Source: Microbispora sp. ZYX-F-249
GTDB lineage: Bacteria > Actinomycetota > Actinomycetes > Streptosporangiales > Streptosporangiaceae
Direction: 5' to 3'
Assembly (NCBI RefSeq): GCF_039649665.1
Contig: NZ_JBDJAW010000004.1
Coordinates: 62,001-126,000 of the forward strand
DNA length: 64,000 nt
The notes beneath the pieces were generated by a model. It was not told the origin of the DNA, made no database searches, and was given only the letters and a program-made list of their open reading frames with translations. Shown in pieces: positions 1,007 to 26,015 of this stretch (position 1 is its first letter; each line of letters starts with the position of its first letter). The position numbers and the translations under genes are program-made.

Positions 1007-1887
1007 GCGGCACTCTCCACCACCGCGCGGCGGCGGGCGCGGCTCAGGCCCGCCTTCCTGCGTACGGCCCCGGCGGCGTGGGCCAGGCCGTACAACGCGA
1101 CCAGGACGAGCACCACGGTCGCGCCGGAGGCGAGCCGCACTCCGTGCTCCACCGACGCCTCGTAGCTCACGACGAGCCCGAGCCATCCGCCGGCCGCGCC
1201 GACGAGGCAGGCCAGCGGCACGATGACGGCGAGCCGGTCCGACAGGCACCGGGCCGCCGCGGCCGGCACGATGAGCAGCGCGATCACGAGGATCGTGCCG
1301 ACCGCCTTCACCGCGGCCACGACGACCAGCGCGACCGCGATGTTCAGCACGAGGTCGAGCAGGCCCACGCGTACGCCGGCCGCGCGGGCGCCCTCGGGGT
1401 CGAAGGCCCGCAGCAGGAGCGGGCGCCGCAGCACCGCCAGCAACGCCACGACCACGACCGTCACGACGGCGGTCTGGGCGAGTTGCTCCTCGGTGACCGT
1501 CAGCACCCGTCCGAACAGGAACGCCGTGAGGTCGGAGGTGAAGCCCGTCTGCCGCGAGACCACCACGACGCCGACGGCGAACAACGTGGTCAACAGCATG
1601 GCGAGCGCGGCGTCCTCGCTCACGCGGCGGCGGTGCGTCAGCAGCGTGAGCAGGACGGCCGTGAGGACCCCGGCGGCCAGCGCCCCCCAGAAGATGCCGC
1701 CGTCCCCGGCCATGAGGTGGCCGATGACCACGCCGGGGAAGACGGTGTGCGTCAGGGTGTCGCTGACGAAGGCGAGCCGGCGCAGCAGCACCAGCACGCC
1801 GACCGTGCCCGCGAGCGCGCCGAGGAGGACCAGTTCGACCAGCGCCCGCGCCATGAAGGGCAACTGGAACGGCTCGAAGAACATCAT
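1003..1887 (-). CDS. Zinc/manganese ABC transporter permease (ZnuB-like), first permease of operon
   Basis: A 294-residue ABC-3 family permease with the phrase SDTLTHTVFPGVVIGHLM near residue 40, matching the corresponding segment of its partner downstream, so the two look like an old duplication. The ATG at 1887 overlaps the stop of the ATPase gene by 4 nt, and its own stop overlaps the next permease start by 4 nt, so the operon is probably translationally coupled. A basic, alanine-rich C-terminal tail follows the last membrane segment. It is expected in the cytoplasmic membrane, importing Zn(II) delivered by the binding lipoprotein. Confidence 0.85.
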   Translation of the reverse strand: MMFFEPFQLPFMARALVELVLLGALAGTVGVLVLLRRLAFVSDTLTHTVFPGVVIGHLMAGDGGIFWGALAAGVLTAVLLTLLTHRRRVSEDAALAMLLTTLFAVGVVVVSRQTGFTSDLTAFLFGRVLTVTEEQLAQTAVVTVVVVALLAVLRRPLLLRAFDPEGARAAGVRVGLLDLVLNIAVALVVVAAVKAVGTILVIALLIVPAAAARCLSDRLAVIVPLACLVGAAGGWLGLVVSYEASVEHGVRLASGATVVLVLVALYGLAHAAGAVRRKAGLSRARRRAVVESAA

Positions 1888-18846: not shown

Positions 18847-19014
18847 ATGGGTCCGGAACTGCACTACCAGGTAATGATCAACCGGGCGGCCGAGCTTCAG
18901 GAGGAGGCCGCCGGTCACCGGCGCGCCCGCGAGGCGCAGGCGGCGCTGAAGAGCCGGCAGCGCTCCGGCCAGCGCCGGCTGCGTGCGGCCTTCGGCAAGC
19001 TCCGCACCTCATGA
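18847..19014 (+). CDS. Small basic helical protein, function unknown
   Basis: A 55-residue protein (starts MGPELHYQVMINRAAELQEE) rich in Ala, Arg and Gln and predicted to be a single long helix with a basic C-terminus. The ATG at 18847 has AAGGAGA about 8 nt upstream; a longer in-frame reading adds 35 residues without homologous look. It has its own strong terminator, which supports a real monocistronic gene. I recognise no domain. Confidence 0.65.
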   Translation: MGPELHYQVMINRAAELQEEAAGHRRAREAQAALKSRQRSGQRRLRAAFGKLRTS

Positions 19015-19024
19015 GACGCGTACG

Positions 19025-19061
19025 AAGGCCCGGCCGGACCCTCCCTCCCGGCCGGGCCTTT
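19025..19061 (+). terminator. Hairpin terminator with T tract
   Basis: A perfect 13-bp stem (AAGGCCCGGCCGG and complement), 10-nt loop, followed by TTT. It begins 11 nt after the stop of the small helical protein gene. Confidence 0.85.
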
Positions 19062-19096
19062 GCGCCCCCTTGAGCCGTCGTGAGCCCCGCCAGTCA

Positions 19097-19108
19097 GTCA
19101 GATCTGAC
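19097..19108. promoter_or_regulatory. Palindrome upstream of the AAA-LuxR regulator gene
   Basis: GTCAGATCTGAC is a perfect 12-bp palindrome, 37 nt before the start codon. It may be an operator, possibly for autoregulation; there is no further evidence. Confidence 0.35.
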
Positions 19109-19144
19109 CGTAAAACCAGGCGAAGCGACGCAAAGGGTCATGAC

Positions 19145-22036
19145 ATGCTTGACGACATGACACGCCGGGCGGTGAGCCCCGTTTTCGTCGGGCGGGGCGC
19201 GGAGTTGGAGACCCTGGGCGAGGCCTACGACCAGGCCCGCAAGCAGGCCACCGCGGCGGTGCTCATCGGCGGCGAGGCGGGCGTGGGGAAGACCCGCCTC
19301 GCGGTCCGGTTCGCCGAGCAGGCCGCGCAGGACGGCGCCCACGTGCTCGTCGGGGGCTGCGTGGAACTGTCCGCCGAGGGCCTGGCGTACGCGCCGTTCA
19401 CCGCCGCGCTGCGGCAGCTCGTCCGGGAGTGCGGGGCGGCCGAGGTCGCCGCCCTGCTGCCCGACGGCGCCGCCCGGGACCTGGCGAGGCTGCTGCCCGA
19501 GTTCGGCGAGCCGAGCGGCGAAGGGGAGACCGAGTCGGCCCGCGCCCGGCTGTTCGAGCTGATCCTCGCCCTGCTGGAACGCCTCGCCGAGCGGCGGCCG
19601 GTGGTGCTCGTCATCGAGGACGTCCACTGGGCCGACCGCTCCAGCCGCGACCTCATCGCCTTCCTCAGCCGCAACCTCAGGTCGGCTCCCGTCCTGATGG
19701 TCATGACGTACCGCTCCGACGAGTTGCACCGCACCCATCCCCTGCGGCCGGTGCTGGCCGAGCTGGGGCGGGTCGACGGCGTGGTCCGGGTGGAACTGCC
19801 CCGCTTCACCCAGGACGAGGTCGCCGAGCAGATGGCCGGCATCCTCGGGGTGACCCCCGAGTTCGCCAAGGTGGACCGGGTCTTCGAGCGCAGCGGCGGC
19901 ATCCCGCTGTTCGTGGAGGCGCTGCTCGACTGCGGCGACGAGTGCTCGTTCCCCGACTCGCTGCACGACCTGATCATCGGCTCGGTCGAGCGGCTGCCCG
20001 AGGAGACCCAGCGGGTGCTGCGGATCGCCGCGGCCGGGGGCGTACGCGTCGGGCACGACCTGCTCGCGGCGGTCGGCGGGCTGTCCGACGTGGACCTGGA
20101 GAACGCGCTGCGGCCGGCCATCGCCGCCAACGTGCTGCAGGTGGCCGACGGCGGGGCGTACGCGTTCCGGCACGCCCTGATCCGCGAGGCGGTCCACGAC
20201 GAGCTGCTGCCCGGCGAGCACGCGCGGATGCACGCGCGGTACGCCGAGGAGATCGACCGCGACCGCACCCTCGTGCCCCCGGGCCGGGCGGCCATCGAGA
20301 TCGCCCACCACTGGTACTCCGCCCGCGACGACCTGTGGGCGCTGATCTCGGCCTGGGAGGCGGCGGAGAAGGCGGCCAAGTCGTTCGCCTACACCGAGCA
20401 GATCCAGCTGCTCGACCGCGTGCTGACCCTGTGGGACAAGGTCCCCGACGCCGCCGAGCGCATCGGGCACGACCACTGCACCGTGCTCGAGCGGGCCTCG
20501 GAGGCGGCGTACGTCGGCGGCGACATGGAGCAGGGCACCAAGTACGTGCGCGGCGCCCTGGCGGAGCTGGACGAGCGGACCGCCCCGGAACGGGTGGCCG
20601 AGCTGCTGGTCCGGCTGGCGAACATCAAGATCCAGAAGGGCAAGACCAGCGGGCTGGAGGAGCTGCGGCGCGCCGAACGCCTGGTCCCGCGGCCCGGCGA
20701 CATCCGCACGCTCGTGCTGACCCGGCTGGGCACGGTGCTGATCAATTCCGACGAGATCGCCGAGGGCACCGCGCTCACCGAGGAGGCTCTGCGCACCGCC
20801 CGCGAGAAGGGCGACGAGGTCCAGGAGGCCGACCTCCTGATGAACCTCGCGCTCGGACACTCGATCAACGGCGACCTGGAGACGGCGTTCGCGATGAACG
20901 AGCGCGCCCTGGCCATCGGCACCCGGCTCGACTCACCCCGCATCACCCTGCGCGCCCTGGCGAACAACGTCGACGCCCTCGACAACCTCGGCCGCTCGGA
21001 GGAGGCGGTGCGGCTCGCGCTCGAGGGCGAGAAGCTCGCCCGGCGATTCGGCAGGTTCCGCCACCAGGGCACGTTCATCGCCAACAACCGTGCGGAGGCG
21101 CTGGAGTCCCTCGGCCGGTGGGACGAGGCGATCGAGATCATCGAACGGTCGATGACGATGGGGCCGACCCTGCGCAACCGGTGGCACATGCTGCGGGTTC
21201 GCGCGGACATCGCGATCGCGCGCGGCGAGGAGGACCTGGCGCAGGACATCCTCGCCGAGGTCGGGGCGTTCTCCCCGCATCTGGACGAGCAGACGCAGGA
21301 GTGGACGAACAACACCCGCCTGGTCGTCGCGTGGCACCTGCTGCGCGGCGAGCCGCTGCAGGCCCTGGCCGTACTGGAGACGGCGCTGGACGACCCGCCG
21401 CGGTCGGGCAAGGCGATGCTCGCCGGCCGGCTGCTCGCATCGGTCCGCTACGTCTGCGACGCCGCGGCGCCGGTCGCCCCCGAGCAGGTCGAGCGCGTAC
21501 GCGCCATGGGCGACCGTCTCGCCGAGAACCTGGGCGACGGGCCGGTGGACGAGGCGTTCGGGCTGGTGTACCGGGGCGAGTTCGACGCCGCGGCCGAGGC
21601 GTGGCGGCGGCTGGGCCGTCCGTACGTGCGGGCCAAGGCGCTGCTGCACGCGGCGATGGCCGCCGCCGCGAGCGGCGACCGCGACGGGGCCTCGGCGCGC
21701 CTGCGCGAGGCATCCCCGCTCGCGGCCGAGTTGCGTGCCACCCCGCTGGTCACGCAGATCGAGACGCTGGCCCGCCGCGTCGGCGCCCCCCTCTCCCGTG
21801 CCACGCCGTCCGGTCCCACACCGCCGGAACCCGCGCGGCAGGCCGACCTGACCCCGCGCGAACTGGAGGTGCTGCGCCTGGTGGCGGCCGGGCGCAGCAA
21901 CAGGGACATCGCGGCCGAGCTGTTCATCTCGGCCAAGACCGTCAGCGTGCACGTGTCGAACATCCTGCCCAAGCTGGGGGTGTCGACCCGGGGCGAGGCC
22001 GCCGCCGCGGCCCACCGCCTGTCTCTTCTCGATTAG
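19145..22036 (+). CDS. Large ATP-binding LuxR-family regulator (LAL type)
   Basis: A 963-residue transcription regulator. An AAA/STAND ATPase module is at the N-terminus, with Walker A GGEAGVGKT (residues 42-50), Walker B VVLVIEDVHWADRSSRD and a downstream winged-helix-like region. A long helical TPR-like part follows, and a C-terminal LuxR HTH begins LTPRELEVLRLVAAGRSN and continues to ISAKTVSVHVSNIL. Such proteins activate metabolic or secondary-metabolite genes on binding an inducer. The ATG at 19145 has AAAGGG 7 nt upstream; another ATG four codons later is possible. No obvious target operon is adjacent. It ends at a 15-bp tandem repeat shared with the convergent gene. Confidence 0.9.
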   Translation: MLDDMTRRAVSPVFVGRGAELETLGEAYDQARKQATAAVLIGGEAGVGKTRLAVRFAEQAAQDGAHVLVGGCVELSAEGLAYAPFTAALRQLVRECGAAEVAALLPDGAARDLARLLPEFGEPSGEGETESARARLFELILALLERLAERRPVVLVIEDVHWADRSSRDLIAFLSRNLRSAPVLMVMTYRSDELHRTHPLRPVLAELGRVDGVVRVELPRFTQDEVAEQMAGILGVTPEFAKVDRVFERSGGIPLFVEALLDCGDECSFPDSLHDLIIGSVERLPEETQRVLRIAAAGGVRVGHDLLAAVGGLSDVDLENALRPAIAANVLQVADGGAYAFRHALIREAVHDELLPGEHARMHARYAEEIDRDRTLVPPGRAAIEIAHHWYSARDDLWALISAWEAAEKAAKSFAYTEQIQLLDRVLTLWDKVPDAAERIGHDHCTVLERASEAAYVGGDMEQGTKYVRGALAELDERTAPERVAELLVRLANIKIQKGKTSGLEELRRAERLVPRPGDIRTLVLTRLGTVLINSDEIAEGTALTEEALRTAREKGDEVQEADLLMNLALGHSINGDLETAFAMNERALAIGTRLDSPRITLRALANNVDALDNLGRSEEAVRLALEGEKLARRFGRFRHQGTFIANNRAEALESLGRWDEAIEIIERSMTMGPTLRNRWHMLRVRADIAIARGEEDLAQDILAEVGAFSPHLDEQTQEWTNNTRLVVAWHLLRGEPLQALAVLETALDDPPRSGKAMLAGRLLASVRYVCDAAAPVAPEQVERVRAMGDRLAENLGDGPVDEAFGLVYRGEFDAAAEAWRRLGRPYVRAKALLHAAMAAAASGDRDGASARLREASPLAAELRATPLVTQIETLARRVGAPLSRATPSGPTPPEPARQADLTPRELEVLRLVAAGRSNRDIAAELFISAKTVSVHVSNILPKLGVSTRGEAAAAAHRLSLLD

Positions 22037-22084: not shown

Positions 22085-22647
22085 AACAGGGGCTCGATCA
22101 GCAGCAGCACGCCGAAGACGGCGAACGCGGCGGCCGCGCCATACTTGATCCATTTCTCGGGCAGCCGGGTGCCGAGGAACCTGCCGACCAGGATGGCCAG
22201 CGCGTCGGCGGCGACCATGCCCACGGTGGAGCCGACCCACGTGCCGAACCAGCCGTGCTGGGTGGCCAGCGTGATCGTGGCGAGCATGGTCTTGTCGCCC
22301 AGTTCGCTGAGGAAGAACGCCACGGCGACGGCGATGAACGCGTTGCGGGTGGTCTTGGCCGCCTTGCCCTTCTCCTCCTCGGTGAGTTCGTCGCCGCGCA
22401 GCGTCCAGGCGGCGAAGGCGAGGAACGCGATACCGGCGATGATCGAGATGGCGGTGGTGGGGAGGGCGTCGCCGACCAGCCGGCCGAGGCCGACGCTGAA
22501 GAGATGGACGAGCGCGGTCGCGGCGGTGATGCCGGCCAGCACCGGCCCCGTCTTGAACCGGGTCGCGAAGGTCAGGGCCATGAGCTGGCTCTTGTCGCCC
22601 AGCTCGGCTACGAAGATGACGACGAGGGAGATCCAGAGGGCGTACAC
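22078..22647 (-). CDS. GDT1/TMEM165-family manganese exporter
   Basis: A 189-residue membrane protein with two homologous halves, each carrying the family motif: FVAELGDKSQLMAL in the first, FFLSELGDKTMLAT in the second. It has six membrane helices with a charged central loop (RGDELTEEEKGKAAK). Members move Mn(II) or Ca(II) out of the cytoplasm. The GTG at 22647 is chosen because AAAGGCG lies about 6 nt upstream and translation then begins at the first helix. A yybP-ykoY manganese riboswitch precedes it, which strongly supports Mn export. Confidence 0.92.
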   Translation of the reverse strand: MYALWISLVVIFVAELGDKSQLMALTFATRFKTGPVLAGITAATALVHLFSVGLGRLVGDALPTTAISIIAGIAFLAFAAWTLRGDELTEEEKGKAAKTTRNAFIAVAVAFFLSELGDKTMLATITLATQHGWFGTWVGSTVGMVAADALAILVGRFLGTRLPEKWIKYGAAAAFAVFGVLLLIEPLFA

Positions 22648-22720
22648 GGGTCGCCTTTCGTCCCTTTCAGGGGGATTTGCGACCGGGCCGGCGTACGACA
22701 CCCGGGGAGTTCGGGCACGA

Positions 22721-22761
22721 CTTCGGCCCGGCAGCATGCGGTCATGACTGTCGGGCCGAAG
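22721..22761 (-). promoter_or_regulatory. Expression platform hairpin of the Mn riboswitch
   Basis: On the minus strand CTTCGGCCCG (22752-22761), which contains the 3' arm of aptamer helix P1, is exactly complementary to CGGGCCGAAG (22721-22730). This 10-bp stem and P1 cannot form together, giving a switch between an aptamer-bound and an alternative structure upstream of the GTG. Confidence 0.65.
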
Positions 22762-22846
22762 GTCTCGTCCGCCACGAGGGCTCCACGACCGGGCGGACGA
22801 ACCGCCAGTGTGTCGATCAGTGGATTTCGGACTACTCCCCTTCGGT
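22755..22846 (-). promoter_or_regulatory. yybP-ykoY manganese riboswitch
   Basis: The transcript has the two conserved halves of this aptamer class: GAAGGGGAGTAG near the 5' end (complement of 22831-22843) and GAGACCTTC near the 3' end (complement of 22758-22766). Helix P1 is formed by CCGAAGG (22838-22844) and CCTTCGG (22756-22762). Two arms lie between. It lies 5' of a manganese exporter, the classical context; Mn(II) binding should raise exporter expression. Confidence 0.87.
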
Positions 22847-22867
22847 GTTGCCCCAGTCTAACCCGGG

Positions 22868-23917
22868 CTAAAGACTCACTCCCACCAGCACGGGCTCGTT
22901 GACGAGCCACACTCCGAACTTCTCGTGCACGCCGTCGCGCACCTCGCGGGCCAGCGCCAGCAGTTCGTCCGCGCCGGCCTCACCGGTCGGGTTGGTGAGG
23001 GCCAGCGTGTGCTTGGTCGAGATGCGGGCCCGCCCCTTCTCGTAGCCCTTGGGGAAGCCGGCGTTCTCGATAAGCCATGCCGCCGGGACCTTGACCATGC
23101 CGTCGGGCATGTCCCAGCGCGGGTGGCCGGGGGCCCGCAGTCCCAGGGCCGCCGCCTCGTCCGGGCCGAGCACGGGGTTGGTGAAGAAGGACCCGGCGCT
23201 GCGCGTGTCCGGGTCGCCGGGGTCGAGGACCATGCCCTTGCCCCGTCGCAGCCCCAGCACCGCCTCGCGCGCGTCGGACAGCGGCACCCGCTCACCGAGC
23301 TCCACGCCGAGGCGTACGGCCAGCTCCCGGTACGCCACGGGCCCCGACAGCGGCGAGTGCTCCAGGGCGTAGGTGACGGCCAGCACCACGTGCCTGCCGG
23401 GGTCGTGCTTGAACGCGCTGTCCCGGTAGGCGAAACCGCACTCGGCCGCCGTGAGGTCCCGCACCTCGCCGGTGACCCGGTCGTACACGCGGACGCCGGT
23501 GACGGTCTGCGAGACGTCCTGGCCGTACGCGCCGACGTTCTGGATGGGGGTGGATCCCACCAGCCCGGGGACGCCCGACAGGCATTCGACCCCCGACCAG
23601 CCCTCGGCCACGCACCGGGCGACCAGGGCGTCCCAGTCCTCCCCCGCCTGCACGGTCACCCGCACCCGTCCGTCGTCGGGGGTCACCTCGACGCCCCGGG
23701 TGGCGACGCGCACCACGAGCCCGTCGAACCCGTCGTCGGACACCACGAGGTTGCTGCCGCCGCCGAGCACCAGCACGGGCTCGCCATCGCGGTCGGCCTC
23801 GGCCACGGCCGCGATCAGCTCGTCCTGCGTCTCCGCCTGCGTGAACGCCCGGGCCGGCCCGCCCGTCCGCAGCGTGGTGTACGGGGCGAGCGGCACCCCT
23901 GCCAACCGGTCAGCCAT
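22868..23917 (-). CDS. murB: UDP-N-acetylenolpyruvoylglucosamine reductase
   Basis: A 349-residue FAD enzyme that reduces UDP-GlcNAc-enolpyruvate to UDP-MurNAc in peptidoglycan synthesis. FAD-binding VLVLGGGSNLVVSDDGFDGL is split by normal spacing, the YGQDVSQTV and CGFAYRDSAFK segments carry active-site residues, and SAGSFFTNPVL contains the proton-donating Ser. Actinobacterial length. The ATG at 23917 gives the typical ADRLAGVPLAPYTTLRTGG start. It lies in the conserved rpmG - dehydratase pair - murB neighbourhood, separated from the dehydratases by a small repeat-rich gene. Confidence 0.95.
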   Translation of the reverse strand: MADRLAGVPLAPYTTLRTGGPARAFTQAETQDELIAAVAEADRDGEPVLVLGGGSNLVVSDDGFDGLVVRVATRGVEVTPDDGRVRVTVQAGEDWDALVARCVAEGWSGVECLSGVPGLVGSTPIQNVGAYGQDVSQTVTGVRVYDRVTGEVRDLTAAECGFAYRDSAFKHDPGRHVVLAVTYALEHSPLSGPVAYRELAVRLGVELGERVPLSDAREAVLGLRRGKGMVLDPGDPDTRSAGSFFTNPVLGPDEAAALGLRAPGHPRWDMPDGMVKVPAAWLIENAGFPKGYEKGRARISTKHTLALTNPTGEAGADELLALAREVRDGVHEKFGVWLVNEPVLVGVSL

Positions 23918-25690: not shown

Positions 25691-25764
25691 TAGCGGAGGC
25701 CGGACTTGAACCGGCGACACAGCGATTATGAGCCGCTTGCTCTGCCTGACTGAGCTACTCCGCC
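25691..25764 (-). tRNA. tRNA-Met (CAT), elongator type
   Basis: The minus strand folds as a cloverleaf: acceptor GGCGGAG with CTCCGCT (terminal G-U), D arm GCTC..GAGC, anticodon loop with CAT in GGCTCATAATC and T arm GCCGG-TTCAAGT-CCGGC. CCA is not encoded. The initiator hallmarks (three G-C pairs before the anticodon loop, unpaired first base) are absent, so it is the elongator. Confidence 0.93.
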
Positions 25765-25942: not shown

Positions 25943-26015
25943 AGCCCCCAAACGGAATCGAACCGTTGACCTTCTCCTTACCATGGAGACGCTCTGCCGA
26001 CTGAGCTATAGGGGC
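25943..26015 (-). tRNA. tRNA-Thr (GGT)
   Basis: The minus strand gives acceptor GCCCCTA with TGGGGGC, D arm GCTC..GAGC, anticodon stem TCTCC/GGAGA with loop ATGGTAA (anticodon GGT) and T arm AACGG-TTCGATT-CCGTT. CCA is not encoded. It lies 178 nt upstream of tRNA-Met in the transcription direction. Confidence 0.93.

Follow-up and report, generated by a model that had tools for sequence, protein, structure and literature searches.

In manganese riboswitches of the yybP-ykoY class, the Mn-contacting adenosine is A48 in X. oryzae and A41 in L. lactis. The excerpted description of the X. oryzae aptamer calls A48 invariable and reports its contact with Mn2+ (PMC6754395). The E. coli mntP riboswitch is, in the excerpt of its description, Mn-dependent and acts on translation initiation (PMC9603457). 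Among actinobacteria, a yybP-ykoY copy is annotated at terC (cg2157) of C. glutamicum, and the same excerpted account gives three predictions of 43.7-49.9 bits from an older Rfam model, one of which was observed in RNA-seq (PMC3890552); a survey represented here by extracts covers the Mycobacteriaceae and Corynebacteriaceae (PMC3766115). The association of UPF0016/GDT1 genes with the yybP-ykoY riboswitch is also already in print; an excerpt of PMC7380456, citing Dambach 2015, reports riboswitch control of these genes in 328 of 333 strains.

The locus described in this study has the same aptamer class and exporter family as the set in the PMC7380456 excerpt, and it shares phylum and class with the C. 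glutamicum copy, whose target in the excerpted account is TerC rather than GDT1. The window, a stretch of 64,000 nucleotides from the soil actinobacterium Microbispora sp. ZYX-F-249, carries a complete yybP-ykoY aptamer on its minus strand (22845-22756, from sequence). It sits in the leader between murB (end 22868) and a GDT1-family gene (22647-22078), and 108 nt separate its P1 helix from the GTG start of this GDT1/TMEM165 homologue. That the aptamer is present can hardly be doubted. The most probable reading of the whole is a 5' leader that combines a Mn2+-sensing aptamer with a relay switch and serves a cation exporter gene of GDT1 type. The predicted aptamer, the exporter association, the mutually exclusive pairings and their covariation were all demonstrated by sequence comparison, and Mn2+ would be the ligand in Microbispora by class membership.

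An earlier note had described both conserved aptamer halves and a perfect P1 helix, and these were recovered on the minus strand as GGGGAGTAG (22840-22832), GAGACCTT (22766-22759) and a perfect 7-bp P1 between the 5' arm CCGAAGG (strand A, 22845-22839) and the 3' arm CCTTCGG (22762-22756), the last six letters of which begin strand B. Two models were built, R1 from 34 aligned aptamers, two of them non-actinobacterial, and R2 from 25 actinobacterial rows, the window copy among them. Across the 25 rows, six P1 column pairs were 100% standard, one with four GC-to-AU double changes. The L1 5' strand GGGGAGTAG shares letters with P1, where that helix ends, and with the inner helix, where it begins; GGGAGTAG was invariant in all 34 aligned aptamers. 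The L1 3' strand reads GAGACC; its GAGA and the inner-helix 3' arm GGAC occupy 22770-22763, and GGAC pairs with GTCC at 22832-22829, one pair of this helix being UA in 14 and CG in 11 of the 25 rows. The window copy thus has the class marks of a P1 helix and an L1 internal loop formed by the strands GGGGAGUAG and GAGACC. The P3 arm (22824-22782) contains L3, ACACACT at 22813-22807, and the return strand CCGG at 22792-22789; six of its eight pairs (helix 3) showed double changes and 88.0% of cells were paired. It is followed by the P4 hairpin GCC-CTCGT-GGC (22781-22771; helix 5 of the 25-row alignment). The Mn-contacting adenosine of L3 corresponds to A22811, matched by sequence rather than by structure, and is A in 34 of 34 aligned rows within the consensus ACAYRCY; L3 deviates in L025 and L026, with ACA kept. 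Over the 34 rows, 17 of the 26 consensus pairs had double changes. The 25 actinobacterial rows had 93.0% of cells paired over 26 pairs, and their covariation score was 0.426 versus 0.176 for shuffles and 0.07-0.12 for slid-partner controls.

Compared with the described members, the window copy shares with E. coli mntP and alx the L1 strands (GGGGAGTAG and GAGACC), the invariant L3 adenosine, P1 as the switch helix and an exporter gene downstream. Its L3, ACACACU, agrees in six of seven letters with ACAUACU (ACA48U49ACU52) in the excerpted X. oryzae description (PMC6754395). It lacks a P2 arm, with only about 4 nt from the inner helix to P3, a place where mntP has an insertion in the R2 alignment. 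A P2 arm is not required for the class, since L104 exceeds the RF00080 cut-off with a similarly short linker. The window aptamer was therefore modelled as a three-way junction, in contrast to the four-way junction of the solved X. oryzae aptamer. A further difference from mntP and alx lies in the expression platform, which in the window contains the extra strands C and D. A separate stretch at 22710-22704, ACTCCCC, complements the aptamer GGGGAGT, and the two are paired when the leader is folded without constraints; much of the window's clade has similar CTCCCC-like stretches, which may represent an additional anti-aptamer strand.

The leader is probably transcribed from its own promoter, because a TAnnnT box ending 5-16 nt 5' of the P1 CGAAGG was present in 46 of 48 representative leaders (mean 3.9 and maximum 11 in shuffled upstream sequence) and because the window's putative -10 box, TAGACT (22860-22855, minus strand), lies 7 nt past the murB stop. 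This box is 9 nt upstream of P1, and from it the transcript would start close to the P1 5' arm.

The check proposed in the earlier note, a search with the Rfam yybP-ykoY model, came back empty. RF00080 gave no match in the window at the gathering score, none at E<=10 with permissive filters over 361 bases around the leader, and none in the whole genome; the window copy thus falls short of the cut-off of 45 bits, which is a property of the curated library entry and no biological feature. In 197 genomes of the class (stricter filters), no match exceeded the cut-off and four fell below it. Taken at its word, the criterion set in the earlier note would count this silence as a refutation; it was judged instead to be a false negative. 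R2, built exclusively from actinobacterial sequences, picked up the two Mn riboswitches of E. coli, at 31.8 bits for alx (E 2.8e-6, 81 nt upstream of the gene) and 28.6 bits for mntP (E 2.1e-5, 116 nt upstream of the gene), which ties the window copy by homology to experimentally studied members. RF00080 itself recognised some related actinobacterial copies below its cut-off (L061, 34.1 bits; L031, 32.4; L033, 29.6; L049, 29.2), and it also scored the E. coli mntP switch below the cut-off, at 41.6 bits. From other phyla, L104 reached 54.3 bits with RF00080 and 59.6 with R2, and L106 reached 38.5 with RF00080; L084, searched alongside L104 and other relatives, gave no match to RF00080. The failure of RF00080 is a weakness of the model. 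Matches to gabT, ybhL, mir-H7 and WT1-AS_4 (E 1.8-8.9) were far under their cut-offs and were dismissed.

On the window, R2 scored the aptamer at 84.5 bits (E 7.9e-21; next best window match, 14.5 bits), a value that is partly by construction because the window supplied one of the 25 sequences. The independent support is the occurrence of the same predicted aptamer at the same place in other genera. In a sample of 198 genomes of the phylum, R2 matched 45; R1 matched 239 of 394 genomes of the class (stricter filters), of which 280 contained PF01169 (GDT1). At 80 GDT1 loci, an R1 match was found upstream of the gene on the coding strand in 56, of which 22 were R1 training rows, and was absent in 24. 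Among relatives, the aptamer was recognised by pattern or R1 at 26 of 30 GDT1 loci, with no R1 match at E<=0.01 in L027-L030. As is usual for the class, these aptamers occupy leaders of Mn-homeostasis or exporter genes: GDT1 here, and TerC, MntP and Na/Ca-exchanger (Na_Ca_ex) genes for sister copies in other actinobacteria. The same aptamer was seen before an actinobacterial MntP gene (PF02659) in L149 (1542-1635, minus strand) and before sodium/calcium-exchanger genes in L031 (1501-1608), L032 (about 1489-1588) and L161 (1628-1741), all on the minus strand, with exchanger identity taken from PF01699 for L032 and L161 and by eye for L031. G029 and G047, the genomes behind L031 and L032, gave no PF01169 match, as if one exporter replaced the other. 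L155 contained two aptamers in one 2-kb stretch (444-548 and 1735-1830, minus strand), each before a TerC-like frame.

Downstream of the aptamer, the P1 3' arm and its extension, CTTCGGCCCG (22761-22752), pair exactly over 10 nt with CGGGCCGAAG (22730-22721), as the earlier note had read. For the description of the switch, A and B denote the P1 strands, C the complement of B, D the complement of C, and E the start-site strand. Strand B, CTTCGGCCCGACAG (22761-22748), pairs with A in the aptamer or with C in the alternative hairpin; strand C, CTGCCGGGCCGAAG (22734-22721), pairs with B or D; and strand D, CGGCCCGG (22690-22683), is the exact 8-nt complement of CCGGGCCG (22731-22724). D overlaps GGTCGC (22684-22679), which pairs with GCGACC (22654-22649) just before the start codon to form a start-site hairpin enclosing the SD-like GAAAGG (22659-22654).

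By eye, the complement of the P1 3' arm was repeated in nearly every leader listed. For the statistics, 112 leaders were reduced to 109 by removing L024, L104 and L106 and then clustered to 48 representatives with less than 75% identity. The best B duplex ranged from -8.4 (L067) to -31.5 kcal/mol. Duplexes formed by a leader's own strands were stronger than swapped ones for B-C (z -12.6 and -12.0 in two runs, 48 leaders), C-D (z -9.1, 47 usable leaders) and the SD with its upstream sequence (z -5.6, 48 leaders), as compared with mean z values of -1.2, -1.3 and -0.7 and lowest values of -2.8, -2.9 and -3.3, respectively, in dinucleotide-shuffled controls. Restricted to the B-extension, the 14 nt beyond P1, the permutation test gave a weaker signal (z -2.7). 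Within the 16 leaders of the window's clade, B-C was paired in 213 of 224 cells with only two double changes, and C-D in 127 of 128 cells with only one, so that the C-D covariation there rests on a single double change, equalled by 53 of 500 shuffles. L038 showed concordant changes in B, C and D. Two exclusive folds, as first proposed from the window, are the best reading, and the B-C hairpin covaries across the 48 diverse leaders.

In other leaders the connection to the ribosome site is direct. Strand B pairs with the SD in L067, and the P1 3' arm pairs with the SD region in 12 of 15 TerC-like leaders, which had been chosen for a visible complement and were folded as short pieces (L146, L147, L148, L150, L151, L152, both aptamers of L155, L157, L158, L159 and L165). 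L153, L154 and L156 were left out of the folding, L153 being without an SD complement by eye. TerC identity was checked with PF03741 for L147 and L158 and by eye for the others. The usual sequences were CCTCCGG for the P1 3' arm and CCGGAGG for the SD region; in L158 both sides differ in a matching way (CCTTCGG/CCGAAGG).

On this basis the following mechanism is suggested for the window leader. Transcription would start shortly upstream of P1. Binding of Mn2+ would dock L1 with L3 and hold P1 (A-B) together, leaving strand C free to pair with D; C-D pairing would disrupt the hairpin that covers the ribosome site and allow translation of the exporter. Without Mn2+, B would leave A and pair with C, whereupon D would be released, the start-site hairpin would form and translation would be low. 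The direction, more exporter with more Mn2+, is very likely correct. Control at translation rather than transcription is favoured with fair confidence, and the C-D relay as written is a serious candidate that falls somewhat short of probable.

Accessibility calculations were carried out with the aptamer-closed state simulated by making the P1 arm unavailable, and differences above 0.5 kcal/mol were counted for or against; these are secondary-structure energies, in which tertiary docking, the order of co-transcriptional folding and ribosomes play no part. In the 6-nt SD window, which was tried first, 26 of 48 leaders were for and 10 against (p 0.0025; 12 shuffles per leader, 19% for and 16% against), and the window's own leader went in the wrong direction (-0.76 kcal/mol). 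Three wider windows were chosen after this result. With P1 closed, opening of -15 to +3 cost less in 32 of 48 leaders and more in eight (L023, L069, L081, L083, L091, L111, L113 and L120), versus 26% for and 19% against with shuffled linkers; the Wilcoxon p of 3.6e-5 is somewhat flattering because the wider windows were picked post hoc and, among them, this one alone was tested against shuffles. Here the window leader gained 5.8 kcal/mol, versus -1.0 to 1.9 in ten shuffles. The counts were 30 for and five against at -15 to -5 (window leader +1.8) and 28 for and seven against at -12 to +2 (window leader +5.8). L083 was against in all four windows and L021 in two of the four. Among 28 leaders grouped as Streptosporangiaceae with their near relatives, a related, non-independent set, 25 gained and none lost by more than 0.5 kcal/mol.

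The main rival explanation, considered unlikely, keeps the same Mn2+ aptamer and makes the control transcriptional: the B-C hairpin would be a terminator, lacking a U-run or assisted by Rho, that P1 prevents. The hairpin is indeed long and GC-rich, and in L104 and L106, from other phyla, a hairpin after P1 is followed by T7 and T6, respectively. However, TTTT near the end of strand C was found in only two or three of 48 leaders (two scans), counts that may be low because both scans, which flagged L106, missed the plain T7 of L104, where strand C had been assigned to another position; the whole stretch from B to the start codon contained TTTT in eight of 48. In seven leaders (L033, L077, L096, L116, L117, L122 and L139), an SD hairpin and then T4-T6 immediately precede the start codon, an arrangement that recalls a terminator overlapping the ribosome site and counts in favour of this rival; in the last 10 nt, TTTT was present in eight of 111 leaders, L034 included. 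Against termination at B-C stand the covarying pairings that continue between C and the start codon, and the direct pairing of P1 or B with the SD in L067 and the 12 TerC-like leaders. The switching element of the earlier note is thus real and conserved, and its extent has to be redrawn: as further pairings continue to the start codon and there is no terminator U-run, the switch probably acts on translation and extends past the interval first outlined.

That a real yybP-ykoY-type aptamer has been retuned to another ion or signal, such as Ca2+ or pH, is regarded as very improbable. Pfam names the GDT1 family 'divalent cation/proton antiporter', and an excerpt on the S. pneumoniae mgtA switch describes Ca2+ binding by a family member (PMC9495176), both of which would be compatible with such a change; the agreement of L1 and of L3, including its Mn-contacting adenosine, with the X. 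oryzae form and the sister copies before MntP and TerC genes speak for Mn2+. Readings as conserved but ligand-free hairpins or as a fortuitous similarity, to which the silence of RF00080 might point, are disfavoured to the verge of dismissal, given an aptamer core kept in 34 of 34 aligned copies with covarying stems and the recovery of the E. coli Mn riboswitches by an actinobacterial model.

The Mn2+-sensing leader with a translational switch, as preferred here, precedes a gene with a PF01169 match (E 3.2e-43, two stretches), in agreement with the GDT1-type exporter expected from the letters. Its translation contains two copies of the motif E-x-G-D-(K/R)-(S/T), ELGDKS and ELGDKT; one or two copies of this motif mark GDT1/UPF0016 proteins in the excerpt of PMC7380456. 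The downstream gene is likely a manganese exporter. A leader peptide, considered for a 100-aa frame over the leader (22608-22910), was rejected, since L012 has GTA in place of the GTG near strand C, and L010, L012 and L014 are 2 nt shorter in the stretch that follows. Elsewhere in the window, a large predicted regulator with TPR-like and C-terminal LuxR-type similarity (18983-22036) faces the GDT1 gene in convergent orientation; all 25 NCBIfam matches listed for it were under their cut-offs. The only gathering-level Rfam matches in the window were two tRNA genes (25943-26015 and 25691-25764, minus strand). In Rhodococcus erythropolis, a UPF0016 gene showed the strongest down-regulation at nearly all times of phage infection according to the excerpted report (PMC10986025), and a related GDT1 gene with this aptamer occurs in R. 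qingshengii (L056).

A GDT1 relay was not found in the excerpted yybP-ykoY account of C. glutamicum (PMC3890552), and no GDT1 relay leaders were described in the titles and abstract openings among the matches listed, in a literature search that covered few subscription journals. It is tentatively proposed that actinobacterial GDT1 leaders have a relay-type platform, in which the switch strand mostly stays clear of the ribosome site and passes the signal via C and D, inserted strands that pair by turns with their neighbours, to the start-site hairpin, as opposed to the direct type of TerC leaders, in which the P1 3' arm is the anti-SD. The contrast between no RF00080 match over the cut-off in 197 genomes and R1 matches in 239 of 394, both with stricter filters, shows that the current Rfam model passes over a large set of Mn riboswitches in actinobacteria. 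If the proposal is true, these would form a lineage-wide branch of Mn riboswitches with a modular, extendable output, and one aptamer with two outputs, direct for TerC and relayed for GDT1, would offer a testable comparison. For Microbispora, the leader would tie to Mn2+ a GDT1 homologue that is itself unstudied.
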